DNA of 33,462 nt from a virus (IMGVR_UViG_3300034190_000284:1-33462), one strand, 5' to 3'; positions 10,916 to 25,446 are shown, counted from the first letter of the stretch. The notes: generated by a model not told the origin, from the sequence alone. Numbers and translations: made by a program.

Positions 10916-11951
10916 CTTCAATCTCCTCTACAATTGGTTCTTCTTCACCGGAACCATACTTAAACTCTTTACCAGCTGCGACTTCAATTTGCGCCATAAT
11001 ATCATCGGTAAAATATTCAGATGGATTTGTGTAGATAGCCTTGGCGAATACTTTACGACCATCAGGAAGTTCATAGCGTGTAGAAACTTTCTTGAATATG
11101 TCATACTTCTCAGCAAGGTCTACCAGACCATAGTAACGATCAAGGCCACTGGTATATGATAACTTGACTTCAACTTTCTTCTGCTCTTTAGTGAATCTAG
11201 ACTTATGCATAGTGACTTTGATAATATTACCAATCACGTCAGTTCCGTCACGATCCTTCTTCTTACCGAGCATTACAATGGAAGAAGCAGCATACTTCAA
11301 GCCAGATCCGCCGCTGATTTCTTTGGTAGGAATATATGCGCCAATCACATCATAGACGTGGTTAGTGACCAGAAGCGGGACATTAGCTTTAGCCAACTTC
11401 AATGAAAGAACACGGAATGTTCCGCGCAGTAATTGCGACTTGGTCATATCACGCTTATCACTACCAGACTCAGTATCGGCCAGCTCTTTGGCAGACGACA
11501 ACATACCAAGCGAATCAAGAACCATCATCATCGGGGGAGCTTCTTTACCCTGATCAATATAACTTGTCAGAATACGAGTGGCATTAGTTCGGAACTCTTC
11601 AATCGAAGATGGCTCAGAAATAACAACACGCTTTGTGTCAATGCCCCGATCATCCATCATCTGCCTAGTGACAGCAGCTTCTGTGTCAAAGTAAATGACA
11701 CCGCCAGTAGGATTATCTGCCAAGAACTGCTTGAGCACACCCAAAACAAAGAACGTCTTACCTGTAGCGGATTCACCCGCAAAGGCACTAATCTTATTAT
11801 TGGGCACGCCGCCATAAATACTACCAGAGATAGCAGCGTTCAATATATAAGAACCGGTGTCAATAGAACCTGAGAACTCAGAACTATTACCACCATCACT
11901 CAGGAGAGACGTATTGTCAATCCCCTTTACCATATCAGTTAAAAAACTCAT
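10905..11951 (-). CDS. uvsX: UvsX recombinase (RecA family)
   Basis: This 348-residue RecA-fold protein is near the length of marine T4-like UvsX and shorter than T4's 391. Walker A is GESATGKTFFV at about 59-69, a GGVIYFDTEAAVTRQMM strand-helix follows, and Walker B is MMMVLDSLGML. The loop-like GAYIPTKEISGGSGLKYAAS region and TNHVYD match UvsX/RecA DNA-binding and ATP-sensing regions. It forms filaments on single-stranded DNA and drives strand exchange for recombination-dependent replication. It overlaps the 2OG-oxygenase gene by 4 bases (ATGA) and lies two genes downstream of gp43B, as in marine T4-like genomes. The promoter at 12512-12540 probably drives it. Confidence 0.95.
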   Translation of the reverse strand: MSFLTDMVKGIDNTSLLSDGGNSSEFSGSIDTGSYILNAAISGSIYGGVPNNKISAFAGESATGKTFFVLGVLKQFLADNPTGGVIYFDTEAAVTRQMMDDRGIDTKRVVISEPSSIEEFRTNATRILTSYIDQGKEAPPMMMVLDSLGMLSSAKELADTESGSDKRDMTKSQLLRGTFRVLSLKLAKANVPLLVTNHVYDVIGAYIPTKEISGGSGLKYAASSIVMLGKKKDRDGTDVIGNIIKVTMHKSRFTKEQKKVEVKLSYTSGLDRYYGLVDLAEKYDIFKKVSTRYELPDGRKVFAKAIYTNPSEYFTDDIMAQIEVAAGKEFKYGSGEEEPIVEEIEDAS

Positions 11952-12487
11952 ACAAAATTATCCTCACTCGGTTTAGTTATCCAGACATTTGTGGCAAAGC
12001 ATCTTCGTAATCCAGATGTTACATGGGTCACTCGATGGACAGTACCAGAATCAAATATAATTAGGCGATTCGGAACAGGCTGAAGGCGCTCGACACCATC
12101 ATCCCGCTGAATCTCAAGATACCCTTCATCCGGAAGGGTCTTGTGGCAATAGTAAACTGAACCAATATAAGGTGTATTCAGTTCACGAGACTCTTCTCCT
12201 TGGGCATAAAGGTGTTCATCCTTATCAAAGTGCCAAGGCAAATCCTGCTGCTTTCCAGGGAAAGACATGATGTTATTCCAGTACTCAATACCCGCATAAT
12301 CTCCAGGCATCATACCATGAACGGCAACAGTATCCCAAATGCGCTCAGTAACCATTTCCCATATATTGGAAGGTTTATCGCCTTTATCCATAAAGCTATA
12401 AGGCAATGTACCGCCCCAGAACCTATCGTGCTGAATATCAAACAGCAAGGGATCATCATCACTTAAAAAATTATCAATCACTAACAT
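11948..12487 (-). CDS. 2-oxoglutarate/Fe(II)-dependent oxygenase (prolyl-hydroxylase-like)
   Basis: This 179-residue protein has the facial triad of 2OG-Fe(II) oxygenases. His86 and Asp88 lie in LPWHFDKDEH, His151 in DSGTVHRVTHV, and Arg161 or Arg162 in GLRRCFATNVWI is the expected 2-oxoglutarate-binding Arg. LVIDNFLSDDD at the N-terminus is typical of prolyl-hydroxylase-like members of the superfamily. The substrate (protein, nucleic acid or small molecule) cannot be read. T4-like marine phages commonly carry several such enzymes. The gene has its own promoter with perfect spacing, starts 49 bases after the previous gene, and shares ATGA with uvsX, so it is expressed with the recombination and helicase genes. 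Confidence 0.85.
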   Translation of the reverse strand: MLVIDNFLSDDDPLLFDIQHDRFWGGTLPYSFMDKGDKPSNIWEMVTERIWDTVAVHGMMPGDYAGIEYWNNIMSFPGKQQDLPWHFDKDEHLYAQGEESRELNTPYIGSVYYCHKTLPDEGYLEIQRDDGVERLQPVPNRLIIFDSGTVHRVTHVTSGLRRCFATNVWITKPSEDNFV

Positions 12488-12511
12488 AACAAACTCCTCA
12501 ATATACCCTCA

Positions 12512-12540
12512 ATTATATACGATACGATACCAAAAGTCAA
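12512..12540 (-). promoter_or_regulatory. Sigma70-type promoter upstream of the 2OG-oxygenase/uvsX/41 operon
   Basis: On the minus strand: TTGACT (12535-12540), 17 bases, TATAAT (12512-12517). It is 25 bases before the oxygenase start, and its -35 box overlaps the end of the preceding small gene. Confidence 0.8.
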
Positions 12541-12794
12541 GCTTTATATATGGCAGTAATCATATCGCTGAACTGTTCCAACTTCTCAAGTCGGTTCGGC
12601 CAATATATATGGCTCTTTTCTGGGTTCTTTGCCAGGTTGGTCAGCAGGGGCTGTATAGCATTATACAGTTTATCGAGCCTTTCTGATGTGTCAAAAGACG
12701 ATTCGTTGATCGCCTCTGCTTCTGCCCTAATGGACTGTACAGCCTCCAACTCGTCTTCATTAACAATAGTAAATCCAAAATCGAAATCGCTCAT
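12537..12794 (-). CDS. Small conserved T4-like protein after gp43
   Basis: This 85-residue acidic, helical protein begins MSDFDFGFTIVNEDELEAVQ and contains ERLDKLYNAIQPLLTNLAKN followed by EKSHIYWPNRLEKLEQF. I recall proteins with this MSDFDFGF...DEDELE start and the YWPNR end as conserved small proteins near gp43 and uvsX in marine T4-like phages. It has no membrane segment or catalytic motif. It begins 9 bases after gp43B, and the -35 box of the next promoter lies in its last codons. No function is known to me; the conserved position next to the replication proteins suggests a replisome-related role. Confidence 0.8.
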   Translation of the reverse strand: MSDFDFGFTIVNEDELEAVQSIRAEAEAINESSFDTSERLDKLYNAIQPLLTNLAKNPEKSHIYWPNRLEKLEQFSDMITAIYKA

Positions 12795-12803
12795 ACTGTT
12801 CTC

Positions 12804-13910
12804 CTATCCGAAAAAGCCTTCAAGAGTAGACTTTCTCTCATCGCTCCAGCCAACTGACTCGAGTATAATTTTAAGTGGGTCAAGAAACGCTTTGTTAAAC
12901 TGCGTATCATAATCAATGTAACCGCTCAGATCAAACTCTTTGGGCAATCCATGCATGACACTTATCACATTATGTTGTGAGGGGTTTGGTTTATTTAGGT
13001 AGCAGAACTTGATCTTTTCGCCATCCTTGATCACCTCGTACTTCTTAGTCAACTTATGCTTCCGGAGTAAATGATTGTACACTAGACCACCTCGAACATG
13101 GATAGGTGTACTCTTAGGAATATTCAGATCGGTAGCATTGCCATCATAATATTTACCAAAGTCAGATACTGACCGTGGAAAGGCAACTTCCTCAAACGTC
13201 ATCTTCTCGAACTTAGTTCTAAAATCGGAGATAAACGCTTGGGCAGTTTCCTCATCCTCATTCATGATAATGTTAATGGCAGCTTCAAGAGAATCCCTGC
13301 ATGATTGCGGAGTAGATGACTTTACTGTTTCAATACCCATCATCTTCAGCTTAGGAGTAGAGTAACGAACGCCCTCATTATCATAGACGTTCATCATGTA
13401 TCTTTTCTTAGCAGTCCAGATTGCCTTATCCGCAATAACCTCACGCTTCATAAACATCTTCTGGTCGAACGAATTGGTTATTTGTGCCAGTTCTTCATAA
13501 CTTTTATCAATAAAAGGTTCCAGCTTCTCGCTTGCAACTGTGTCCAAGAAGTTGACGATTTTGACAGGGTCACTTCCCTCTTCAAAGCATTTACCCACAA
13601 GTGCATCGAAATTAACGTAAATCGAGTCTGTATCCGATGCGATAACATAGTCAGCTTCGGATGTTTGCAGTATCTTATTAAGGTATTCATTTACTCTCCT
13701 CTCAATCCAACGAATGGATAATTGCCCTGATAGCGTGATGGCCTCAGCTTTCCTCACATCGAAGAACCTGAAATATTTGTTTCCAACAGCGCCATATGCT
13801 GAGTTTAGCTGAACCTTCTTAGCAAGCTGAAGATTCTTGTACTTGCTTATATCTTTGATCACTTGCTTCTTGCGCTCAAGAAGGTCAGCCTTACTCATGT
13901 TTTCAATCAT
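12804..13910 (-). CDS. 43B: DNA polymerase gp43, C-terminal part (gp43B)
   Basis: This 368-residue protein is the C-terminal part of a family B polymerase. It begins at MIENMSKADL, in the fingers region, and carries motif B (KKVQLNSAYGAVGN at 31-44, with the conserved K, N and YG) and motif C (ASDTDSIYV at 91-99, with catalytic Asp93 and Asp95). The KAIWTAKKRYMMNVYDNEG block matches T4 gp43. The terminus DERKSTLEGFFG resembles the gp45 clamp-binding tail of T4 gp43. It lacks motif A, which lies in gp43A, so neither half can be active alone and the two must assemble. Its start overlaps the stop of the small intervening gene (TAATG). Total length of the halves is 849 residues, against 898 in T4. 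Confidence 0.95.
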   Translation of the reverse strand: MIENMSKADLLERKKQVIKDISKYKNLQLAKKVQLNSAYGAVGNKYFRFFDVRKAEAITLSGQLSIRWIERRVNEYLNKILQTSEADYVIASDTDSIYVNFDALVGKCFEEGSDPVKIVNFLDTVASEKLEPFIDKSYEELAQITNSFDQKMFMKREVIADKAIWTAKKRYMMNVYDNEGVRYSTPKLKMMGIETVKSSTPQSCRDSLEAAINIIMNEDEETAQAFISDFRTKFEKMTFEEVAFPRSVSDFGKYYDGNATDLNIPKSTPIHVRGGLVYNHLLRKHKLTKKYEVIKDGEKIKFCYLNKPNPSQHNVISVMHGLPKEFDLSGYIDYDTQFNKAFLDPLKIILESVGWSDERKSTLEGFFG

Positions 13911-14194
13911 TAAAGAATAATCCCACTTGTCGCAGAAAGATACGCCTTCTCAATATCAGCATTAGTTTCTGTCACAAAGACAATACCACCAGAGAAGAAC
14001 TCAATCATGGGAGTATCCTTTACGCCAGTCTGACATACGCCATATGCAAAACCCATACCGCCATCCTTGCCTGAGACCAACATACGCGGATCTTTAATCT
14101 TCACCCCAGTAGGACTTCGATCTTCAAACTTACCAACAAACTCACCAGTCAGTGTTACTAGAGATACTACATCACCTTTCTTCATATTGTTCAT
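13910..14194 (-). CDS. Small beta-barrel-like protein between the two gp43 halves
   Basis: This 94-residue soluble protein starts MNNMKKGDVVSLVTLTGEFV and continues GKFEDRSPTGVKIKDPRMLV, then FVTETNADIEKAYLSATSGI. The KKGDVVSLVTLTGE opening resembles SH3/Sm-like small beta-barrels. I recall similar proteins from marine T4-like phages, usually near gp43. It lies in the polymerase gene with start and stop codons overlapping both halves (ATGA with gp43A, TAATG with gp43B). It lacks intein splice residues and homing-endonuclease motifs, so it is not the intervening MobE-type gene reported in some other split-gp43 phages. It could help assemble the halves, but that is speculation. Confidence 0.8.
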   Translation of the reverse strand: MNNMKKGDVVSLVTLTGEFVGKFEDRSPTGVKIKDPRMLVSGKDGGMGFAYGVCQTGVKDTPMIEFFSGGIVFVTETNADIEKAYLSATSGIIL

Positions 14195-15636
14195 ATTGCT
14201 TTCAACCTATTGTTAATTAATTCTAGTTCAGCTTCGGATTCAAGCATCTTCTTCTTGTATCCTTTACGCTCAGTGTACATACGTTCCATCATTTCAGGCA
14301 AGAACCCTTGCTTATCCCTTCGGAAGAAGTGACCATTGGCCGCCATACAGCGGTCAGTTGTCGACCTCACTTTCCGGTCAATGATGTCATCAATCGTTAC
14401 ATCTTCATACTCACCTTCAACAAAAGTTTCGGGGGAGATATTATACTGCATAATCAAATGCGGATACAGAGAATTCAAATCGAAACTCATAACCCACTTG
14501 TGCATACCAACTTGCGGATCCTTAACGTATGCCCCAGCAAAAGTTGAATCCTTAAATGATTCTTCCTTCGGTGGGATAACTATCCGCTTGTTTATCAGGT
14601 AATTATGTATAAGAACATCCCACATCGTTACCTGAGTGAATGTGTCATTGTAGTTTACCTTAGCATCATAAGCAATAGCCAAAGCCATCTCAATCAGCTT
14701 CATCTTATCTTCAAGTTTATCAATCAACTCCACATCTTTAATATTATAGTCGATAAACTTCTGATAGTCAAGTTTATGGAGTTGATTTAGATTACCAACG
14801 TCAGAGTAATCAATCTTCCTCTCGCCCAATTCTACGTGAGCAATATGATCAAGGCGATAAGATGCCTGTTGAGAATATGTAAACTTCTTATACAGCTGCA
14901 GGTAATCTAGCGTAGCAATACCAGTCAGCTCCCACAATATTTCTTGGCGATTGAATTTAGTAATCTCGCGCTTCTTCAACCAACGGAATGGGGACAGCCG
15001 CTTTACTTCCTCATTACCAAGAAGTTTGCCAATACGATTGACCAGATATGGGATATCGAATCCTTCAATATTCCAACCAGTAATGATATCGGGGTCAAGG
15101 TTCTGCCAGAAGTTTAAGAAGATAGACAATAGACGCTTCTCGTCTTTGGCGTCAATATAGTGAACATCTTCCCGAGACTTTTTATACTCGCCAACACCAA
15201 CAACCCAATAGAACTTCCTGCCTTCCTTCATATGAGAAACACAAATAGCTGTTACAGGCTGGTTAGCCAGTTCCGGCAAGGGGAACCCATCCTCAGAGCC
15301 AACCTCAATATCTATGTTTGCTACCTTGATCTGTTCAACATCATAATCGTTCCCGAACTTCTCATTCAGGTAAACATACGCCCATTTGGTTGAGCCATAG
15401 ATTTTAAAGTTATCAACCGCCTCATACTTCTTAGAAAACTGAGATGCTTCGCGGATATCGCCCATCTTAACAGGCTCGACATACTCACCACTCAAAGTTT
15501 TATACTCGGACTCCTTTCGAGAAGGGATGTATAAAGTTGGATTATATTGTTCCTGCTTTACAAATCGCTTGCCGTTTTTGTACCCGCGAGTATTGACCAT
15601 GTTGCCTCGGACGTGAGCATGAGTGTAGAAGTTCAA
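14191..15636 (-). CDS. 43A: DNA polymerase gp43, N-terminal part (gp43A)
   Basis: This 481-residue protein carries the exonuclease and first palm elements of a family B polymerase. Exo I is NIDIEVGSEDGF (Asp109, Glu111), Exo II GWNIEGFDIPYL (Asp194), Exo III YNIKDVELIDKL (Asp301) and motif A SFDLNSLYPHLIMQ (Asp386). It ends in a basic helix (RKGYKKKMLESEAELELINN), at the fingers tip, just before motif B. The start is TTG at 15636, giving MNFYTHAHVRGN, which lines up with the usual FYT...RGN start of marine T4-like gp43; the TTG overlaps the previous TGA, and AAGGG sits 8 bases upstream. A typical gp43 has both parts in one chain; here a stop separates them. Confidence 0.93.
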   Translation of the reverse strand: MNFYTHAHVRGNMVNTRGYKNGKRFVKQEQYNPTLYIPSRKESEYKTLSGEYVEPVKMGDIREASQFSKKYEAVDNFKIYGSTKWAYVYLNEKFGNDYDVEQIKVANIDIEVGSEDGFPLPELANQPVTAICVSHMKEGRKFYWVVGVGEYKKSREDVHYIDAKDEKRLLSIFLNFWQNLDPDIITGWNIEGFDIPYLVNRIGKLLGNEEVKRLSPFRWLKKREITKFNRQEILWELTGIATLDYLQLYKKFTYSQQASYRLDHIAHVELGERKIDYSDVGNLNQLHKLDYQKFIDYNIKDVELIDKLEDKMKLIEMALAIAYDAKVNYNDTFTQVTMWDVLIHNYLINKRIVIPPKEESFKDSTFAGAYVKDPQVGMHKWVMSFDLNSLYPHLIMQYNISPETFVEGEYEDVTIDDIIDRKVRSTTDRCMAANGHFFRRDKQGFLPEMMERMYTERKGYKKKMLESEAELELINNRLKAI

Positions 15637-16064
15637 ATTCCGTACCCTTCAAAGTTCTCAACTTCTAGTTCGTTCCACATAAATACTACGCAATGGTCGG
15701 TTTGGAAACCTTGTTCTTCAAGGAAAGAAGATTGATCATTTTCCCAACCTTCCTGAAGCATTTCCTCATCGGCATCTGTACATCCATCATAGCAAATATC
15801 TTCGGAGCAGCCGTCGTACGACCCAATAAACTCATATTCATCGAAGTCATATGGCTCAAAACAATCCTCATCCTCATTAGACATAGCCAGAGTCAGTCTC
15901 TCAACTTCTTCCGCAGTCATAGGAGTGATGTTAACAGTACCGCCGCGCCAGAGAATAGAAACAGTAACACTCCGACCATCCTCATGTGTAAAGGACTCAA
16001 CCTCCTCAAAACTTTTCTTGTATTTGGGAGATACTGAATAAACCTTACCGATTTCAATTTCCAT
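15633..16064 (-). CDS. Small acidic phage protein upstream of gp43A
   Basis: The ATG at 16064 is chosen because AGG lies 9 bases upstream; an ATG at 16070 also exists. The 143-residue protein begins MEIEIGKVYSVSPKYKKSFE, has a SVTVSILWRGGTVNITPMTA middle, and then an Asp/Glu/Cys-rich stretch (EDEDCFEPYDFDEYEFIGSY) with four cysteines. The cysteine cluster (C..., DGCSEDICYDGCTD) may bind a metal, but no known zinc pattern is clear. The gene overlaps the HAD gene's end region closely and shares TTGA with the start of gp43A, so it is co-translated with the polymerase. I recognise no family. A regulatory role is possible but unsupported. Confidence 0.7.
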   Translation of the reverse strand: MEIEIGKVYSVSPKYKKSFEEVESFTHEDGRSVTVSILWRGGTVNITPMTAEEVERLTLAMSNEDEDCFEPYDFDEYEFIGSYDGCSEDICYDGCTDADEEMLQEGWENDQSSFLEEQGFQTDHCVVFMWNELEVENFEGYGI

Positions 16065-16069
16065 AATCA

Positions 16070-16660
16070 TCAACCTGTAATAATATTGTAAATTTCATGC
16101 CAGTTATTAACTCTGACCGCATCACCATTATACGCTACATTGTACCCATGAGCAAGTAATAAAGAATTCAACCCAGCGGCAGCACCAACGTCAGCATTTT
16201 CTGCTTTATCTTCAACCCAGAAACAGCCAGTGCCTTTATACTTCGCAAGCGCCTCATCCTTATCACCACCGCATGGCAAGCATGTAACAACCTCAAAGAT
16301 GCCCTTACCAAATACAGCCTCAAGATTTTCAATACGAAGCTGGCGAGCTTTCGGGCAGTCAGACTGAGAAGTAATAGCGTGGAATACATAACCGTGGTCA
16401 GTATGCAGTTTACGAACATACTTAACAGCATCGCGAAACGGTGTCAGGTCACGTATCCAAGCACTCTCATTAAAGGAAGAGACCAATGGCTTGGTAACTT
16501 CTTTATCAACTCCAAATACTTCATTAATTTTATACATAGCGCCCCAACCACGAACAGGACTATATCCACGCCCTTCCATGTAGTTCATGAAACCATGAAC
16601 CCAATCAAACAAGACGCCATCGCAATCTGTCAAGATTACCTTTTCTTTACTTACATACAC
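16070..16660 (-). CDS. HAD-superfamily phosphatase/nucleotidase
   Basis: This 196-residue protein starts with GTG at 16660, preceded by GGAG at 8 bases. HAD motif I is LTDCDGVLFDWV (nucleophile Asp12, acid/base Asp14), motif II is AITSQ, a conserved Lys (KDEALAKYK) is near motif III, and WVEDKAENADVGAAAGL gives the metal-binding Asp motif IV. The Phe/Trp-rich cap resembles phage and bacterial 5'-nucleotidases or polynucleotide phosphatases, but a specific substrate is not visible. It sits immediately downstream of a TTGCCT-17-TATAAT promoter, at the head of the gp43 operon. Nucleotide salvage or end-healing are both reasonable readings. Confidence 0.8.
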   Translation of the reverse strand: MYVSKEKVILTDCDGVLFDWVHGFMNYMEGRGYSPVRGWGAMYKINEVFGVDKEVTKPLVSSFNESAWIRDLTPFRDAVKYVRKLHTDHGYVFHAITSQSDCPKARQLRIENLEAVFGKGIFEVVTCLPCGGDKDEALAKYKGTGCFWVEDKAENADVGAAAGLNSLLLAHGYNVAYNGDAVRVNNWHEIYNIITG

Positions 16661-16691
16661 TAACTATACTCCAATTCAATTCAACATATAT

Positions 16692-16720
16692 ATTATACTA
16701 TATCCAGCAGGAAGAGGCAA
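16692..16720 (-). promoter_or_regulatory. Sigma70-type promoter upstream of the HAD gene
   Basis: On the minus strand: TTGCCT (16715-16720), 17 bases, TATAAT (16692-16697). It precedes the HAD/gp43 operon, whose GTG start is at 16660. Confidence 0.75.
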
Positions 16721-16741
16721 GACTTATTTCTATCTTTTTTC

Positions 16742-17158
16742 CTAAACAACGGAGCGCAGATTGATGTAATCAGTTCGCTCACCTTCCGGAAGCATTATCC
16801 ATGATTCTGTAGAATTGTAGTATGTTTCGTGAGAAAGAACATAGTTGCCATAAAAGTTCTTGGCAATAACCTTCTCGCTTTCCCATTCTTCAGTAACTGT
16901 TTGGTCAGCGTCAACTACTCGCCACCCAATAACTACCTCGGAATCGTAATGGTTAGTTGCCTCAATAAGTTTGCTGAGATATTTAACAGTATCAGATAGA
17001 CAATTGTGGGGGATCGAAGTATCAAACTCGCCATACATGGTGTAGGTGTTACCGCCCTTCATCTTCCAACCTTGAGGGCATTCACCCTGACCGTCCCAAT
17101 CGTGGGCGGCATAGTTTTCGGAGTTTTGGGTATCAATAACTAATTTTCTCATATTCAT
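16742..17158 (-). CDS. Conserved phage hypothetical protein (MRKLVIDTQNSENYAAH)
   Basis: This 138-residue protein begins MNMRKLVIDTQNSENYAAHD and then WDGQGECPQGWKMKGGNTYT. A start at the next ATG (17152) is equally possible. I recall phage and bacterial hypothetical proteins with the same opening (a short beta-strand, then ENYGAH and GGxTY), but not their function. The middle holds SEVVIGWRVVDADQTVTEEW and the end reads ERTDYINLRSVV. No membrane segment or known catalytic motif is seen. It is the first gene after a consensus sigma70 promoter (TTGACA-17-TATAAT), so it is probably an early gene. No ribosome site stands out. Confidence 0.75.
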   Translation of the reverse strand: MNMRKLVIDTQNSENYAAHDWDGQGECPQGWKMKGGNTYTMYGEFDTSIPHNCLSDTVKYLSKLIEATNHYDSEVVIGWRVVDADQTVTEEWESEKVIAKNFYGNYVLSHETYYNSTESWIMLPEGERTDYINLRSVV

Positions 17159-17166
17159 CTCTTATA

Positions 17167-17241
17167 TCAATTTATACAGCTATTATACCTAATGCGTGCG
17201 TGTATGTCAAGCAATATCGTCATTACATTTCATTATAGTCG
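17167..17241 (-). repeat. Repeated promoter block, copy 1
   Basis: The 22 bases 17167-17188 (including the -10 box and 15 bases downstream of it) are identical to 31893-31914. Further upstream of the promoter, GTAATGAC (17219-17226) and CGACTATAAT (17232-17241) also recur in the other copy. The spacer and -35 region are not conserved as sequence. Confidence 0.75.
17182..17210 (-). promoter_or_regulatory. Consensus sigma70-type promoter after the cyclase gene
   Basis: On the minus strand: TTGACA (17205-17210), 17 bases, TATAAT (17182-17187), a perfect match to the consensus. It lies after the cyclase stop and before the gene at 16742-17158. Confidence 0.85.
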
Positions 17242-19062
17242 TTATAACTTTGGAGAATAGATGGTTATGAGTTCTTCTTTACCTTTGACTTTGATGTCGC
17301 CTATTGGTCTCGATTCAATAGTGGTAAGTTGGTCCATTGTTGCGCGAGAGTAGATGGTCTTGTATTCGAGATACTCTCCTCGAGCTGCTGTGGCTTCGAG
17401 TCTGGCGGCAAGGTTAACTGCGTCTCCGATGACCGAATAGTCAAACCGTGACTCACTACCCATATTACCAACAATGCAAGTACCTGTATTGATGCCAGTT
17501 CCAACATTGATGGGGGGTAAACCCTGTTCTTGATATCGTCGTCTAAGTTCATTAGTCTTAATCTCTATCTCTATTCCTGACTTAACTGCCAAGTCGGCAT
17601 GGTTCTCGCACGGCAACGGCGCATTCCAAAATGCCATAATACAGTCGCCCATGTATTTATCTATCGTGCCGCCATTGTTTAGAATTATTTTCGTCATGGC
17701 GTCTAAATATTCGTTGATCAAATCAACCAAACCTTCAGGGTCATCATTGTTTTTGTAGTGCTCAGATATAGGTGTGAATCCTACGATGTCCATAAAGAGG
17801 AAACTCATCTCTTTACGCTCACCGCCCAACTTCAATAGAGAGGGATCTTTCTGCAGAAGATACACCATCTCCGGAGATAAATAAGTACCGAACTGCTTTT
17901 TAATTTGCTCTTTCTGCTTATATGTAGTATAATACCTATTGAAAGAACTTTGCCCAAATACAAGGATCCCTGCTAGTGAAGCCCAGACAACGTCTAAGAA
18001 CAAATACCCAGAATGCCAAACGTAGAAACCTGATGACATTACAGATAAGAGCAAGCCAAAAGACACTATCACCGCAGCTATTGTGGGAAGCGTGTAGACC
18101 GATACAAGGATACCTAGACACACTATCAAAAGAATCGCAAGCTCAGCTGCTACAGACCAGTCGGGTCGAAGTATTTGAACGCCTGAGATTAAGGTCTGAA
18201 TCTGATGACCTTGAACTTCGTGGGGATACATTGCACCCACTGGGGTTGGTACTGGATTAGCGACACCTTCAGCTGTAACCCCAAGTATCACAACCTTTCC
18301 TTCGGGTATCGGATCAAGTATTGATTGCGTTTTAAATTTATTCCAAAACGCTACTGGTAACTCGGAGGTTGGCTGTGTGATTAGCGGATCTTGCCTTCCC
18401 AACCTTATCCACTCAATTCCCAAATCATTCTTCTTAACAGTATATGACGGTTCTCCCAAAAACACCCTCACCGCATCAAGACCTAATGATGGGTATGGTT
18501 GCCCATTAATCCCAACTATAAGGGGAACTCTTCTTAGAACTCCAGTCGGTTGGTCTAGCTCCGCGGAAACAGCGCCCACACCCATAGCATATTGCGCAAG
18601 TTCGGGGATGGGTGTAAGCAGACCGGTGTAATTGACTAGAGTTTCTGGACCAGCGCCGAATGTAGAAACATTAGCATAAATGCCGAGATCATCTGTAGTA
18701 GTTTGGCGCGTAGGTGCGCTTGCTAATATTACTGCCTTCTGACTTAGCGAGGCGGATAGTTCTTGATCCCCCGCAAATCTATCTTCCTCTGACCATATCA
18801 TTGTTGATACGAGTAAGGAATTATTCGGTGCTTGATTTATGTACTTCGCGAGTGTTTGTCTTGGCCAGGGATATTGCCCTTCTTTCCTGATTGCTTCTTC
18901 ATCAATGTTCACGAGAACGATATCGTCAACTTCAATGATTTCATGACTGCGCTGTAGATAGTCGTAGTAGATATATTCTACTGCCTTAACTGTGTCGTAC
19001 TGTGAAACCTTTAAGAATGCGAGTAAGAATATTATAGGAAGAACCGAATACCACTTGGTCAT
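17242..19062 (-). CDS. CHASE2-domain class III adenylate cyclase, membrane bound
   Basis: The ATG at 19062 gives 606 residues and overlaps the curlin-B stop (TGATG); a TTG at 19107 is less likely. An N-terminal TM helix (about 5-19) is followed by a periplasmic CHASE2 sensor (about 22-300, with VNIDEEAIRKEGQYPWPR and the late PEGKVVILGVTAEGV strand), then three TM helices (about 304-372) and a class III cyclase domain (417-600). The metal aspartates are Asp425 (FMDIVGFT) and Asp473 (YMGDCIMAFW), adenine selectors Lys469 and Asp541, and transition-state residues Asn550 and Arg554 (VNLAARLE). All are intact, so it should make cAMP from ATP. FecR/CHASE2 partners are known in bacteria. It is the last gene of the curli-like operon. 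Confidence 0.92.
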   Translation of the reverse strand: MTKWYSVLPIIFLLAFLKVSQYDTVKAVEYIYYDYLQRSHEIIEVDDIVLVNIDEEAIRKEGQYPWPRQTLAKYINQAPNNSLLVSTMIWSEEDRFAGDQELSASLSQKAVILASAPTRQTTTDDLGIYANVSTFGAGPETLVNYTGLLTPIPELAQYAMGVGAVSAELDQPTGVLRRVPLIVGINGQPYPSLGLDAVRVFLGEPSYTVKKNDLGIEWIRLGRQDPLITQPTSELPVAFWNKFKTQSILDPIPEGKVVILGVTAEGVANPVPTPVGAMYPHEVQGHQIQTLISGVQILRPDWSVAAELAILLIVCLGILVSVYTLPTIAAVIVSFGLLLSVMSSGFYVWHSGYLFLDVVWASLAGILVFGQSSFNRYYTTYKQKEQIKKQFGTYLSPEMVYLLQKDPSLLKLGGERKEMSFLFMDIVGFTPISEHYKNNDDPEGLVDLINEYLDAMTKIILNNGGTIDKYMGDCIMAFWNAPLPCENHADLAVKSGIEIEIKTNELRRRYQEQGLPPINVGTGINTGTCIVGNMGSESRFDYSVIGDAVNLAARLEATAARGEYLEYKTIYSRATMDQLTTIESRPIGDIKVKGKEELITIYSPKL

Positions 19063-19838
19063 CAGTTTTGAGTCACTGATATGCCACAGCCACCAACTGT
19101 AATGCAATTTTGCTGTATCGAAAACGATTGGCCAGTAACGCCGCTTTGTGTGAGGGATATGTCAGTTCCGTATTGGCCTGTTATCAATATATCTGCGTGG
19201 TGATCGCCATGGCCTTTCTGAACAATTGATGCGATATTGTCATCACTAATAATACCAACCTCTAGGAACTGAGAACCACCTTCTTTCTGTTTAATGTGAA
19301 CGTCATTATCATCACCTTCGATCATGACATACGCTTCATGCCCAGAGGAATTGTTATTAGTTCTCTGAGAAACTTTAACTTCGTTGTAGTCGCCGTCGAT
19401 AGCAATACCAACAAACTGATCACCATGCTCATCATAATCTTCAATGAAGGTTCCGTTGGCATCAAGATCATATCCCTGACCAACCATTACAGTATTTCCG
19501 GTTCCTTCTAGTTCAGCTATCGACACTGCTTGGCCTTCAGTACCATACTGTCTATTCTGTTTAATGATGAGCGTGGTATTATCACCGGAGAGTAAACCAC
19601 TGAAATTCCAGACAGTGCCAGAACTATCTGTGTGAGTTACCTGCTCAGTAAGTACCTCATTGAGATATCCAAATTGAGAGATCTCTAAATTCAGGTTATC
19701 ACCACCCACCTGATCAATGGCTATCAAATTATCAGATAGCGCATTTGTTGACAAGATCATGAATATGACCAGAAGGAAACAAAACATTAACAGAACGTCA
19801 ACCACCCACCCTATAAAACCAAATATTACTCGAAACAT
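19062..19838 (-). CDS. Curlin-like amyloid repeat protein B
   Basis: This 258-residue protein has a hydrophobic N-terminal segment (residues 7-30) that acts as a long signal peptide or anchor, with a possible cut after STNALS. The rest is built of repeats of roughly 20-25 residues with the curlin pattern (alternating hydrophobics, then x-Q-x-G-x-x-N or G-D-x-N): LIAIDQVGGDNLNLEISQFG, IAIDGDYNEVKVSQR, VMIEGDDNDVHIKQK, DILITGQYGTDISLTQ. The final residues SVTQN and the CITVGGC pair are notable. Like CsgA/CsgB it lacks other known domains. It starts one base after the FecR stop (TAA-T-ATG). It could be the nucleator or an alternative fibre subunit. Secretion through CsgG is inferred. Confidence 0.82.
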   Translation of the reverse strand: MFRVIFGFIGWVVDVLLMFCFLLVIFMILSTNALSDNLIAIDQVGGDNLNLEISQFGYLNEVLTEQVTHTDSSGTVWNFSGLLSGDNTTLIIKQNRQYGTEGQAVSIAELEGTGNTVMVGQGYDLDANGTFIEDYDEHGDQFVGIAIDGDYNEVKVSQRTNNNSSGHEAYVMIEGDDNDVHIKQKEGGSQFLEVGIISDDNIASIVQKGHGDHHADILITGQYGTDISLTQSGVTGQSFSIQQNCITVGGCGISVTQN

Positions 19839-19839
19839 A

Positions 19840-20982
19840 TTAATTGCCCTGCCGTATTATAACACGTATATCTTCACCGCCATTCGCAGTTATGATGCCA
19901 TTGTACCCATCGACTTCCGTTTCAACTCTAATAGAACCGCCGTTAGAAAAGTTTAAACTAATAACCCCACCAGCGTCCCTGTAAAAAACCAACCCGTCAT
20001 CTTCAGCGAAGATAGCATACTGGCTATCACTATTTAGTCCCCATCTAGCACCCTTCAGAATCGTTGCACCGCCTGCGTTTTGTTGGACGTCTTCAAGTGC
20101 CTCAAGAGTTCTCACTAATTCTTCGACAATATCTAACAAATCAACCAAAAGTTCTGAGTCAAGAGCATTATAATCCAGCCTGCTGGTAACGTCACCATCT
20201 TCGCTGGCGTAGTCGTCAATATCTTTTTCCAATTCATCGAACGCAAGATAGTCAGCATCGAGCGAACCATAGTCATCACTGTCAAGTTCCTGTAACTGTT
20301 CTTCCATTACTTGCCGAACTTCTTTCGGAGGGTTGACAATGAACATATTATCAATTACAGTTGGCGTTATTCCTTCTATCACAACTGTTCTGGTTGGTGC
20401 TGTAGAAATACTTGATACCATGGTAGCAGCATATGCTTCGGATAGAGTTATTTCCCCAGCTTCGTTTGATACTACAATCTCACCTGAAGGATTGCCATAT
20501 TCATCTGGCAGTAATATTACCAGTGACCTACCAAGCTCGTCAGTAGTTGTCGTGAAGTCAGTTCCGCGAACGGCGATCGTAGCTGTTGGGGTAGAGATTT
20601 CTATGTTCTTTTTGTTTACCATGCCCAACCGGCCAGACGCAAATCGGGCTGTACCCATGGCCATCTTCATAACCATTTTTGATTTACTTGGATCGGGATC
20701 GTAGTAGACTTTGTCGATGTAGACAACGCTGTGCTCAATCAGGGATAGTTCCGCTTCATCAGCAAACTTAATGAGCATCCTACCTTTGGCAGTTTTGGCT
20801 GTATCGTTGAGTTGTATTTCGGTGCCGACTTGAGCGGCAATATCTGAGGAGGATCTTTCTAAACTGTTAACGCCTGTGGATTCAATAACCCCACCGATGG
20901 AAGAAGCGTATGCCACCCCCACCAGTAGGTGAATATTAACTGTCGTTAGAAGTATCTTTCTGATTAATCTGGATAGTAGCAT
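19840..20982 (-). CDS. FecR-domain protein (periplasmic sensor/carrier)
   Basis: This 380-residue protein has a signal peptide (residues 1-26, ending VGVAYA|SS) and a FecR domain at about 27-150: GTEIQLNDTAKTAKGRMLIK, then EAELSLIEHSVVYIDKVYYD and ISTPTATIAVRGTDF, with the usual closing TP.ATI..RGTDF. A long acidic helical stretch (about 225-300) and a C-terminal beta region (RWGLNSDSQYAIFAEDDGLV onward) follow. FecR domains usually signal or scaffold in the periplasm. In bacteria, such proteins are often found next to CHASE2 cyclases. Here it lies between two curlin-like genes. The start ATG overlaps the curlin-A end by 47 bases and no other Met precedes the signal peptide. The role as sensor or subunit partner is inference. 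Confidence 0.85.
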   Translation of the reverse strand: MLLSRLIRKILLTTVNIHLLVGVAYASSIGGVIESTGVNSLERSSSDIAAQVGTEIQLNDTAKTAKGRMLIKFADEAELSLIEHSVVYIDKVYYDPDPSKSKMVMKMAMGTARFASGRLGMVNKKNIEISTPTATIAVRGTDFTTTTDELGRSLVILLPDEYGNPSGEIVVSNEAGEITLSEAYAATMVSSISTAPTRTVVIEGITPTVIDNMFIVNPPKEVRQVMEEQLQELDSDDYGSLDADYLAFDELEKDIDDYASEDGDVTSRLDYNALDSELLVDLLDIVEELVRTLEALEDVQQNAGGATILKGARWGLNSDSQYAIFAEDDGLVFYRDAGGVISLNFSNGGSIRVETEVDGYNGIITANGGEDIRVIIRQGN

Positions 20983-21658
20983 TGTCAGAAGTAATGTCCA
21001 ATGTGATTATACCCTTACAGGTTGAGATCCCAACAGCACAGGAACCGCTTAACTGATTAATATCAATATCCGCATTATCACCATCAAATATTACTGTCTG
21101 CTCTTGATAGAACCCATCATTCTGTAAGCTGACCAGGTCGTTACTGTCACCAGTTATATCCCAGTTCCATATAACATCATCAGTTTCGATATCAACATCA
21201 AACGTATTACTTGTACCAAGGATGTTTAGATCAAAATCTAATCTTTCAGAACTTGCCACCTGACCTTGATCCAGATCCATGACGTTATAGTCGCCCAAGA
21301 TTTTGACGTCCATCGTGGTTGTATCGGTAGAACCAATATACCCCAAATTCCAATCCCAGGAATTTGAATCACCAGTCCATTCCATATTGTATGTAGAGTT
21401 ATTAGAAACAACCACGCCATACAACAAGTTACTGTTACCGAGTTGATCAATATCAAAGGTCAACCCAGACCCTGTAATGGGCATTGCTGATGACGTTACA
21501 GAGAAATCGTCACCACCTATCTTGTTACCATAGCCAACTTGATCGATATAGATTGTTAATATATCACCGCTTTGTAATAAGTTAATCTCATTATCATCAG
21601 AGGCGACCGCGAATCCGGCCATAGCTAATCCAGCCAGTCCTACTAAGTACCTATTCAT
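20936..21658 (-). CDS. Curlin-like amyloid repeat protein A
   Basis: This 240-residue protein has a signal peptide (MNRYLVGLAGLAMAGFAVAS, cut after about residue 20). The mature part has about eight repeats of a curlin-type unit with alternating hydrophobics and a G-x-x-N turn: IDQVGYGNKI, FDIDQLGNSNLLYG, WTGDSNSWDW, VKILGDYNVMDLDQ, LNILGTSNTFDVD, DITGDSNDLVSL, and DITSDNATIQINQ near the end. Some repeats keep the Q-x-G-x-x-N of CsgA/CsgB; others have lost the Gln. Two cysteines lie near the C-terminus (SCAVGISTCKG), like the pair in curlin-B. Its start overlaps the csgG stop by 8 bases. It is probably the substrate of CsgG. Confidence 0.85.
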   Translation of the reverse strand: MNRYLVGLAGLAMAGFAVASDDNEINLLQSGDILTIYIDQVGYGNKIGGDDFSVTSSAMPITGSGLTFDIDQLGNSNLLYGVVVSNNSTYNMEWTGDSNSWDWNLGYIGSTDTTTMDVKILGDYNVMDLDQGQVASSERLDFDLNILGTSNTFDVDIETDDVIWNWDITGDSNDLVSLQNDGFYQEQTVIFDGDNADIDINQLSGSCAVGISTCKGIITLDITSDNATIQINQKDTSNDS

Positions 21659-22559
21659 CTTGTTTACTATCTCCTATCGGATGACCATCGTTTTTCCCAT
21701 CATGCTGATGAGGGTGCCTATGTCCATCACGTATTTTCCAAAGACCTCTATCGTGCCCTTGGTATATTAGTTCCAGCACCCCAGCTTCAATCGCTGTCCG
21801 TACCGCATATGTCACGCTCTCATTATTACCAACACCGTCCTCATACTCAATAAGCTGTGTTCCCTGTTCATAAAATCTAAACAGATCACCGGCAGCGCCG
21901 TAACTCATTATCGTCTTTCTACTTTGGACGTTTAATAAAACTTCTCCAGTTAGAACAGAAACTGCCCTAATTGAAACAGTGACAGAATCTTGCCGATACT
22001 GTCTAGAAAACCCTATACCAAGTGTTCTTGCTCCGCGACCACCTGTTTGTAGGTTTGTATCATATCCTATTACACCACCCTCAATTATCATCCCCGCAAA
22101 TAATAGCGGAGCAACTGCACTTTGATCGTCAGCATACTCTTTCCGAGTGCTACGGACTATCTGCCTTTCACGAACTAAGTTATCAATTCCTTGCCGTTCT
22201 ACTACACGAAACCATGTACCGCCGCCAGCTGTCTTCAATGCATCTATCATCATTTCTGTACCGCCTTGACTGACTGCTGTACTGAAATCGGCAATACCAT
22301 CCCGAGACTTTCTTTGTCCAGTTTTATCTGCGAATCCATACACAGCAACAACTGGCTTTTGTTTAGCTGGAGGCAGCTCTAGCAATTCAATGTATGAAGG
22401 TAAGCGCACCGGCTCTGCCTTCTCAACACAGATATACTTGCGCTCCATTATTTCATCTAACCCTTTTCCCGAGCCACATTCCTCAGGGGTTGGCGTCCAC
22501 ATAGGAACACCTGCGCAGCCAGTAAGTAGCAGAAGCGGGATTAGTATCTTATGTACCAT
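21651..22559 (-). CDS. csgG: CsgG-like outer-membrane curli secretion lipoprotein
   Basis: I use the ATG at 22559 (302 residues), because it yields a lipoprotein signal (lipobox LTGC, Cys15) and has a GGAG ribosome site; it overlaps the csgF stop. E. coli CsgG (277) matches clearly: PVVAVYGFADKTGQRK, IADFSTAVSQGGTEMMIDAL, WFRVVERQGIDNLVRERQIV, MIIEGGVIGYDTNLQTGG, GARTLGIGFSRQYRQDSV, VSVLTGEVLLNVQSRKTI, AIEAGVLELIYQGHDRGLW. CsgG forms a nonameric outer-membrane pore that exports curli subunits. A His-rich tail follows (RHPHQHDGKNDGHPIG), absent from E. coli CsgG. No CsgE chaperone gene is visible nearby. The pore loop and cap regions seem intact. Confidence 0.95.
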   Translation of the reverse strand: MVHKILIPLLLLTGCAGVPMWTPTPEECGSGKGLDEIMERKYICVEKAEPVRLPSYIELLELPPAKQKPVVAVYGFADKTGQRKSRDGIADFSTAVSQGGTEMMIDALKTAGGGTWFRVVERQGIDNLVRERQIVRSTRKEYADDQSAVAPLLFAGMIIEGGVIGYDTNLQTGGRGARTLGIGFSRQYRQDSVTVSIRAVSVLTGEVLLNVQSRKTIMSYGAAGDLFRFYEQGTQLIEYEDGVGNNESVTYAVRTAIEAGVLELIYQGHDRGLWKIRDGHRHPHQHDGKNDGHPIGDSKQDE

Positions 22560-23040
22560 CGCCACTATCTCCGTCAGGATCAGAACCAAAGTTACCAGTA
22601 CCAATGGGGATTTCAATGATTGTTTCGCTGCCATCAGAATCAACGATGGTCATCTTAATCACTTCTTCACCCAAATCATTGGTGATGGTTTCATATGTTA
22701 TAACGGATCCTTCTAGAGTAAATGACCCAAAAGTAACCGCATCTTCATTACTGAACATATTGTCAACTAACTGCTTCGATAGCTGAGCATATATCCTGCT
22801 TTCTAGATTCCTAATGAACTTAGCAAGAACCGTGTTATCCGCCTCACGCTCAGCTGCCTTTCGGGCTGCTTCCAGGGCATCTTCTATTGCTTTCTTTCTG
22901 CTATGTTCCTGATTTTCAATTGTCAGATAATGCGCCCCAGTTCCAATTCCACTGAACGAAGGGTTCTTAAATTGGTGGACTATCTCCGCCGCTGCTTGGG
23001 TCGGTATAGTCATCATCAGTAATAACATCAACTTCCGCAT
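22549..23040 (-). CDS. csgF: CsgF-like curli assembly factor
   Basis: This 163-residue protein begins with a signal peptide (MRKLMLLLMMTIPTQAAA|E). The mature N-terminus VHQFKNPSFSGIGTGAHYLT matches CsgF's mature start, in which FQFRNPNFGG binds the CsgG pore constriction. The end (VIKMTIVDSDGSETIIEIPI) matches the terminal beta-rich part of CsgF. The middle is helical (KKAIEDALEAARKAAEREAD) and longer than in the 138-residue E. coli protein. CsgF plugs and extends the CsgG pore and helps nucleate fibres on the surface. It overlaps the upstream small membrane gene by 74 bases, so the start is not free to move far; ribosome site GAGG lies about 10 bases upstream. Confidence 0.9.
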   Translation of the reverse strand: MRKLMLLLMMTIPTQAAAEIVHQFKNPSFSGIGTGAHYLTIENQEHSRKKAIEDALEAARKAAEREADNTVLAKFIRNLESRIYAQLSKQLVDNMFSNEDAVTFGSFTLEGSVITYETITNDLGEEVIKMTIVDSDGSETIIEIPIGTGNFGSDPDGDSGDGT

Positions 23041-23290
23041 TGTTTGTTCGCCTCGTAATGCTCTCTGCGTGTTGTAAGAGCATTGTCAATTTTACTTCAA
23101 GCCTGATCAAATCATTATCCAACATACGAACCTTGTCGATAAGGTCAATCAGAGTCATGTGGGATTCGTCGATCACGGGATTGACTTCTTCCGTAACCCA
23201 AACCCAAATATAATATATGAAATATCCCAAACCGACCGCCGCCAGTATCGGGAACCCATATGTGCCTATTGCTTCAGCTATATCTTCCAC
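22967..23290 (-). CDS. Small membrane protein, holin-like
   Basis: This 107-residue protein starts with GTG at 23290 (AAAGG 7 bases upstream). One N-terminal TM helix (residues 11-32, YGFPILAAVGLGYFIYYIWVW) is followed by an amphipathic, coiled-coil-like region (MTLIDLIDKVRMLDNDLIRL) and an acidic tail. It resembles the previous gene's product in the GFPI...A...G.F segment, so the two look like duplicates. Position next to an M15 peptidase and the single TM make a holin or antiholin plausible, but the csgF overlap (74 bases) also ties it to the curli operon. I cannot decide between a lysis and a curli-related role. Confidence 0.65.
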   Translation of the reverse strand: MEDIAEAIGTYGFPILAAVGLGYFIYYIWVWVTEEVNPVIDESHMTLIDLIDKVRMLDNDLIRLEVKLTMLLQHAESITRRTNNAEVDVITDDDYTDPSSGGDSPPI

Positions 23291-23300
23291 TATTTAGCCT

Positions 23301-23579
23301 TTAGTCCTTTCTACCATCTTCTTGCCCTCTGCTACGAGATATCCTGTCCATATCTGGTTTTACATGAAAGGCGTGAGAAATAAGTATATCGATCTTAAGA
23401 AGCTCGTTATTCATTGTATGGATTCTATTCTGTAAACCCTTAACGAACGATCTTTGTGTTTTTATGTTATCTAGAACGCCAGCAAGTATAAACTTGAGCG
23501 TCAAGAAAACAAAGAATCCGCCAGCCAAAGCACTGGCTATCGGGAAACCAACGTCCCCGATTAGCTGTAACATCTCCAT
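23301..23579 (-). CDS. Small membrane protein, holin-like
   Basis: This 92-residue protein has one N-terminal TM segment (residues 10-34: VGFPIASALAGGFFVFLTLK) and a charged, helical C-terminal part (IKTQRSFVKGLQNRIHTMNN). I recall marine phage membrane proteins with the IG..GFPI...L..G.F.F TLKF pattern. The tail ends RSRGQEDGRKD, very hydrophilic, as in many holins. It follows the M15 peptidase gene at 35 bases and shares its TM pattern with the next gene. A holin is the most economical reading, with the pair as holin and antiholin. There is no direct evidence for lysis. Confidence 0.65.
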   Translation of the reverse strand: MEMLQLIGDVGFPIASALAGGFFVFLTLKFILAGVLDNIKTQRSFVKGLQNRIHTMNNELLKIDILISHAFHVKPDMDRISRSRGQEDGRKD

Positions 23580-25252: not shown

Positions 25253-25419
25253 TACCAAATTCCTAACATTTTTGAGTTTCCCGCAATAATAAAGAAGCAG
25301 GTGACGATATGCACCACCCACCAAAAGGTTCTAATCGCAGCTACCGCATTGGCTTGTCGATCAGTCTCGCCGACCTTTTCGCCGAGGGACTTAGCCCATA
25401 TGCGCCACCACTTCTTCAT
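25252..25419 (-). CDS. 55-residue membrane protein, conserved in marine T4-like phages
   Basis: This short gene (55 residues) begins MKKWWRIWAKSLGEKVGETD and then carries a TM segment (residues 30-48: RTFWWVVHIVTCFFIIAGN), ending SKMLGIW. I remember proteins with this same KWWR..AKSLGEKVGETD start and TW-rich TM in marine T4-like phages between the exonuclease and clamp-loader genes. The start ATG lies in the -10 box of a promoter (TATAATG) 4 bases after dexA, and its stop overlaps the gp62 start (TAATG). A membrane-anchoring role for part of the replication machinery is conceivable. No ribosome site is well spaced before it, so its translation may depend on dexA. Confidence 0.8.
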   Translation of the reverse strand: MKKWWRIWAKSLGEKVGETDRQANAVAAIRTFWWVVHIVTCFFIIAGNSKMLGIW

Positions 25420-25446
25420 TATACTACATATCCTCTACAAAGTCAA
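25418..25446 (-). promoter_or_regulatory. Sigma70-type promoter at the end of dexA
   Basis: On the minus strand: TTGACT (25441-25446), 17 bases, TATAAT (25418-25423). The -35 box is in the last codons of dexA and the -10 box overlaps the start codon of the 55-residue gene, so transcripts from it would begin inside that gene and mainly serve gp62 and regA. Confidence 0.65.

Follow-up and report, generated by a model that had tools for sequence, protein, structure and literature searches.

The viral contig IMGVR_UViG_3300034190_000284 (33,462 nucleotides; its full length is called the window below) contains a curli-type secretion unit on its minus strand. An earlier note on this DNA had described six tightly overlapping genes there, and all six open reading frames (ORFs) were found in the order announced, with agreeing Pfam identities for all but curlin-like A. 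The set was nevertheless incomplete, as two conserved genes for small membrane proteins upstream of csgF, at 22967-23290 and 23301-23579, had been missed. They enlarge the unit to eight genes on one strand, in the order hol1-hol2-csgF-csgG-curlin A-FecR-curlin B-cyclase. The features are as follows.

17242-23040, minus strand: the six-gene curli unit, with overlapping genes for CsgF, CsgG, curlin-like A, FecR, curlin-like B and CHASE2-adenylate cyclase
23301..23579, minus strand: hol1, first gene of the unit; 92 residues, one N-terminal transmembrane segment and an amphipathic coil; phrog_18771, YvrJ-like N terminus
22967..23290, minus strand: hol2, 107 residues, a paralogue of hol1
22549..23040, minus strand: CsgF, 163 residues, signal peptide; PF10614, 1.4e-16
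21651..22559, minus strand: CsgG, outer-membrane pore lipoprotein, 302 residues from the corrected start, LLTGC lipobox; PF03783, 4.6e-51
20936..21658, minus strand: curlin-like A, 240 residues, signal peptide, repeats
19840..20982, minus strand: FecR, 380 residues; signal peptide, periplasmic FecR domain at about 28-190, acidic linker, beta-rich tail; PF04773, 2.4e-8
19062..19838, minus strand: curlin-like B, 258 residues, curlin repeats, C-terminal Cys pair; PF07012 (Curlin_rpt), 3.4e-9
17242..19062, minus strand: CHASE2-class III adenylate cyclase, 606 residues; PF05226, 3.2e-31, and PF00211 (Guanylate_cyc), 3.2e-19

CsgF, CsgG, FecR and the cyclase are represented by PHROGs families. The genes do overlap, as had been noted, but once the csgG start is corrected to 22559, the overlap between csgG and csgF amounts to 11 bases, not 95. 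A host-phage chimera is ruled out at both edges, in keeping with the earlier reading. The downstream junction is present in an independent IMG/VR contig (L041), which matches 10,644 bases of the window (11647-22290) at 99.65% identity, from the csgG interior through the cyclase to the gp43 region, and the upstream order regA-mazG-M15-hol1-hol2-csgF is retained in L023 and L055, with protein identities of about 68-91%.

Scanning viral contigs for CsgG yielded 172 relatives, 80 of which were kept. The eight-gene order was the same in all of these that were long enough to show it, the gaps lying at contig ends; in a few loci additional genes separate curlin B from the cyclase, or hol2 from csgF. 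One such locus (L059) carries an IscU/NifU-like iron-sulphur scaffold (13703-14155; PF01592, 7e-39) and a small ORF between curlin B and the cyclase, and ORFs like this insert occur in L033, L054, L058, L061 and L064. The six-gene order is also kept in distant phages, including the 285-kb contig L307. All eight genes are under purifying selection, with pairwise ratios of non-synonymous to synonymous substitution mostly between 0.05 and 0.2. The argument for long residence in phages, first drawn from the overlaps, holds.

The combination with FecR and cyclase, which the earlier note had not met before, is not novel. When the same gene order was searched for elsewhere, it was found annotated in Pelagibacter phage HTVC008M and Methylophilales phage Melnitz, and it is described in PMC9599517. 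Genes csgF and csgG were reported from pelagimyophages in 2020, and 'sibling capture' was proposed (PMC7029224). In 2022 the full module, comprising two curlins, FecR and adenylate cyclase, was described in myovirus and podovirus pelagiphages; it occurred in the viral data of each of the 65 ocean stations examined, transcripts of it were reported, and an alphaproteobacterial origin was assigned to it (PMC9599517). This pelagiphage type VIII secretion module (HTVC008M, pelagimyophages, HTVC023P-type podoviruses) has the gene content and gene order of ours, small gene(s) included. It differs in that the upstream genes labelled 'HK' (histidine kinase) have no kinase features here, and in that our proteins are 30-48% identical to those of HTVC008M. 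Melnitz has the same eight genes, of which CsgF, CsgG, two curlin-repeat proteins, FecR and the cyclase are annotated; the paper denies genes for amyloid fibres, whereas the GenBank record annotates the two curlin-repeat proteins (PMC9004378). We conclude that the window holds a new member of an already described phage module, in a marine T4-like phage. Aggregation, superinfection block and a reset of cyclic AMP (cAMP), all suggested in the earlier note, are published speculations. New, as far as the open-access literature shows, are the eight-gene unit, the recurrence of FecR beside a CHASE2 cyclase in bacteria, the curlin-like strand that ends phage FecRs, the PA14-curlin B fusions and an operon in a bacterial bin, TMED17.

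The profile searches showed clear similarity to CsgG and CsgF, and the export signals claimed for both were found. CsgF has a signal peptide and, on comparison of N termini, a conserved FKNPSFSG near the mature N terminus, as expected of the pore-lining segment. CsgG begins, after correction, with MVHKILIPLLLLTGC, a lipoprotein-type signal with its LLTGC lipobox, as in the pore lipoprotein of type VIII secretion, and it aligned with the E. coli CsgG structures over residues 52-278 (E 1e-47). We take the E. coli constriction residues to be numbered Tyr51, Asn55 and Phe56. At this place GQFKPYPASNFSTAV aligned against GQRKSRDGIADFSTAV: the Phe is retained, the Asn is replaced by Asp and the Tyr is not retained. 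CsgG and CsgF would together make an outer-membrane pore. As the unit has no CsgE-like gate, such a pore might stay open and let in large nutrients while FecR and the cyclase report the nutrient state, a role suggested in PMC7029224 and PMC9599517. It would leave unexplained the conserved curlins with signal peptides and the PA14 fusions described below, and we regard it as very improbable.

Curlin-like B matches the curlin repeat, as does a secreted subunit of type VIII secretion, and its C-terminal Cys pair (C245 and C251) is invariant in 21 homologues. Curlin-like A taken alone falls under the Pfam cut-off (Curlin_rpt, 0.015); within its family, 18 of 20 members match Curlin_rpt at E<=0.1, the best at 8.6e-6, and comparison of the A and B profiles gave a probability of 99.4% (E 3.8e-21). 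The AlphaFold2 model of curlin A consists entirely of beta strands (predicted local distance difference test, pLDDT, 76), and its comparison with the PDB returned nothing below E 0.2. In two phages a PA14 domain precedes the curlin repeats of curlin B: HTVC008M (AGE60352.1, annotated as hypothetical; L082 10638-11963; 2.7e-6) and the divergent phage L312 (6577-7866; 2.5e-10), where a weak match to the GLEYA adhesin was also seen. These fusions favour an adhesive fibre over a bare pore, and provide the best adhesin candidates.

The FecR protein has a periplasmic FecR domain by both Pfam (PF04773) and fold, the model being similar to 4m0h and 6ovk, periplasmic signalling domains of the anti-sigma/PupR kind (probability 1.00, E about 1e-3). 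The N terminus is a signal peptide, with no cytoplasmic sigma-binding part, and no gene for a sigma factor partner is present in the unit. Because the sigma-binding part is missing, the protein does not strictly count as a FecR regulator. In the AlphaFold2 model the linker is of low confidence and the tail ends in a curlin-like strand. The corresponding pattern, G..N.I.I.Q, was found at the C terminus of 59 of 59 near relatives and of 9 of 9 divergent phages; in its loose form it occurred in 7 of 397 other ORFs and in one of the bacterial FecR controls, which comprise six complete genes only. A true curlin domain in the tail was rejected, as profiles compared with the curlins gave no significant match (probability 8%; 0.5%) and Pfam gave none; the terminal motif alone stands. 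We regard the strand as a lead for a contact between fibre and sensor. If this contact exists, the strand could join or cap unsecreted or growing curlin in the periplasm, FecR would then switch the cyclase, and fibre export would be reported as cAMP, with hol1 and hol2 as inner-membrane parts; we hold this relay to be rather doubtful.

For the cyclase the most likely start is the ATG at 19062 (MTKW..., conserved), an alternative upstream TTG at 19107 giving 621 residues. Its closest solved relative is CyaB (3r5g, 7.5e-36). Together with CHASE2 and transmembrane segments, it has the features of a class III cyclase, namely two metal Asp, the substrate Lys with Thr/Ser/Asp, and the transition-state Asn and Arg; D425, K469, D473, S543, N550 and R554 are present in 47-48 of 49 homologues. 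The Melnitz cyclase deviates, with Asp at the S543 position and Ser at the N550 position. Among 42 alphaproteobacterial CHASE2 cyclases, a sample picked for similarity to the TMED17 cyclase, 12 had a FecR domain within 5 kb (<=5 kb), against 0.55 expected. Related pairs are on record: a Burkholderia biofilm operon (BiofilmReg) encodes a LysM-FecR protein and a CHASE2 kinase (PMC5192318), and Sinorhizobium CHASE2 cyclases react to an external protein via the outer-membrane beta-barrel NsrA (PMC13001267). The likeness lies, for Burkholderia, in a periplasmic FecR-domain protein accompanying a CHASE2 membrane sensor and, for Sinorhizobium, in the CHASE2-cyclase architecture; both differ from the phage unit in having no curli genes, and the Burkholderia effector is a histidine kinase. 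Given the pairing in bacteria and these precedents, FecR and the cyclase most likely sense something in the envelope and set cAMP.

Could the whole unit be mainly a signalling device? FecR and the CHASE2 cyclase would then reset host cAMP, and the curli parts would serve as ligand or surface receptor, not as adhesive fibre. Bacteria without curli commonly have FecR paired with CHASE2, every phage FecR ends in the curlin-like strand, and the cyclase residues are conserved, all of which is consistent with this explanation. Against it, the FecR tail bears no significant likeness to curlin profiles, and podovirus versions of the module often go without the second curlin and the cyclase, yet keep CsgFG, one curlin and FecR (PMC9599517). 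We consider it a possibility of limited weight.

The two small proteins hol1 and hol2 belong to a family of about 90-107 residues, with one N-terminal transmembrane segment, a coil and weakly YvrJ-like N termini. Gene hol1 precedes csgF in each of the 79 viral loci that extend far enough, and among the 50,697 phage records of INPHARED it was found in only six genomes, all with curli genes. A hol1 profile search brought up many further viral relatives; among the best 80, 52 had csgF or csgG in the locus; of the 28 in which neither was visible, 5 were too short. Whole contigs were searched for 17 hol1-profile loci, and csgG was present on 11. Ten such regions were inspected: the six-gene block was inverted in seven, so that hol1-hol2 converge on the cyclase; in L313 the pair separates curlin B from the cyclase; the usual order is kept in L316; and in L315 no csg genes were seen, hol1 lying at the contig end. 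On the viral contig L307 (285,304 bases) the module is complete, and hol1-hol2 and the cyclase converge. The linkage persists through different arrangements, which argues for counting hol1 and hol2 as parts of the system. By position, size and number they are probably the genes labelled 'histidine kinases' in PMC9599517. A histidine kinase upstream of csgF is rejected here: these are proteins of 92-107 residues, none of 22 homologues matched a kinase family (HisKA/HATPase), and no conserved phospho-acceptor His was found.

The note had placed the unit between regA, MazG and lysis genes on one side and gp43 of a T4-like phage on the other, and the neighbours are those. It is surrounded by a T4-type replication region, with gp45, gp44, gp62 and regA (phrog_242, 1.8e-58) upstream, followed by MazG and an M15 endolysin, and with gp43 in two pieces, UvsX and gp41 downstream. 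Two candidate promoters bear on expression.

25418..25446, minus strand: candidate sigma-70 promoter TTGACT-17-TATAAT, 11/12, upstream of gp62/regA/mazG/M15 and the unit; a consensus match only
17182..17210, minus strand: candidate sigma-70 promoter, 12/12, just after the cyclase, starting the next transcription unit

On the unit strand of the window, 7 sigma-70 sites of at least 11/12 were counted, against 0.4 expected, and most near relatives have an 11-12/12 site at the same place after the cyclase. Only 16 of 68 relatives had a near-consensus promoter in the 2.5 kb before hol1. Matches to the T4 late-promoter motif numbered 3, versus 2.2 by chance. The sigma-70 sites suggest that the unit may be transcribed by the host polymerase together with the replication genes; as to timing, the sigma-70-type candidates and the location in the replication region hint, if weakly, at early rather than late expression.

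These data bear on a role in lysis, proposed in 2022 for the curli genes of Melnitz (PMC9004378). In such a scheme the CsgGF pore, the small membrane proteins and the neighbouring endolysin would help to depolarise or open the envelope at the close of infection, setting lysis timing or acting as a pinholin. The M15 endolysin gene lies 35 bases upstream of hol1, and hol1 and hol2 are weakly similar to holin phrog_4898 (E 0.012-0.014). The endolysin is nevertheless outside the conserved unit, being present in 2 of the 80 viral relatives only; two curlins, FecR and the cyclase are kept under selection; and the indications of early expression run counter to the scheme, which we judge unlikely. That hol1 and hol2 are ordinary holins for the endolysin is rejected, as both track the curli unit and not M15; a membrane-active role is possible.

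A bacterial counterpart was found in the Hyphomonas sp. TMED17 bin (NHBW01000006.1, L090), where csgF, csgG, a 504-residue curlin, FecR and a CHASE2 cyclase follow each other in the order of the phage unit, on a 705-kb contig and flanked on either side by metabolic genes. It differs from the phage unit by its metabolic flanks, its single curlin instead of two and its lack of hol1 and hol2. Ordinary bacterial curli loci share CsgG, CsgF and curlin repeats with the phages; they were found without FecR and cyclase beside csgFG, and the phage unit is without CsgC, CsgD and CsgE. FecR and cyclase are said in PMC9599517 to be outside bacterial curli operons, a statement to which the TMED17 operon is an exception. 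The operon was not found in 29 other genomes of the genus, nor in samples of the family (101), order (398) and phylum (398), save for one marginal CsgF match in the last. In trees TMED17 groups with the phages and not with ordinary bacterial curli. A narrow phage sample placed it as sister to all phages (support 98/91 for CsgG, 99/100 for the cyclase); when divergent phages were added, it fell among them with weak support. TMED17 was therefore dropped as a proven bacterial donor, since its position shifts with phage sampling and the direction of transfer is not fixed.

Taken together, we favour an adhesive curli-type fibre exported from infected cells and joined to an envelope-to-cAMP relay, a reading to which we give slightly better than even chances. 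In this phage type VIII (curli) secretion module, curlin-like A and B would pass through the CsgGF pore and assemble on the infected cell into an adhesive fibre that could keep neighbouring cells near the burst or mask the cell surface. The periplasmic FecR domain and the CHASE2 cyclase would jointly sense the state of envelope or fibre and shift cAMP up or down, as a relay from periplasm to cytoplasm, with hol1 and hol2 as obligatory partners. Homology points to the pore, the export and the cAMP synthesis; fibre formation, adhesion and the identity of the signal are proposed on indirect grounds.

Several observations weigh against this reading. No clumping was seen in cytograms or by transmission electron microscopy in the Melnitz study (PMC9004378). 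Of the three constriction residues of E. coli CsgG, two are changed, curlin A is a weak Pfam match whose model matches no solved fold, and no cAMP receptor was identified in phage or host. Neither CsgE, CsgC nor CsgD is among the Pfam matches of the unit, in agreement with the analysis of phages in PMC9599517; these accessories are not universal.

Abundant marine phages retain about 6 kb for an apparent surface fibre and cAMP sensor that infected cells would not otherwise need; the published pelagiphage and OM43 hosts have no curli genes (PMC9599517, PMC9004378). If the reading is true, infection alters how ocean bacteria adhere and how they signal by second messengers. What is added here renders the idea testable: eight genes without a kinase, a FecR-cyclase pair tied to a bacterial pair with experimental precedents, and a candidate contact between fibre and sensor.

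Some minor observations were made along the way. Viral contigs with the module (L084-L089 and L092) or with csgF-csgG-curlin (L091) have been binned into bacterial metagenome-assembled genomes labelled Sphingobacteriales, Rhodobacteraceae, Synechococcus, Planctomycetaceae, Saprospirales, Pirellulales and Pelagibacter, a trap for searches of bacterial curli. L091, considered as a bacterial locus without hol genes, was set aside, as its gene content is probably that of a binned T4-like phage contig. In the window, whose G+C content is ~42%, the DNA polymerase gp43 is made of two ORFs, 12804-13910 (368 residues) and 14191-15636 (481 residues), matching adjacent parts of phrog_262. Downstream of the cyclase, two conserved-looking ORFs (16742-17158 and 15633-16073) gave no match in Pfam at 0.01 or in PHROGs at 0.001.

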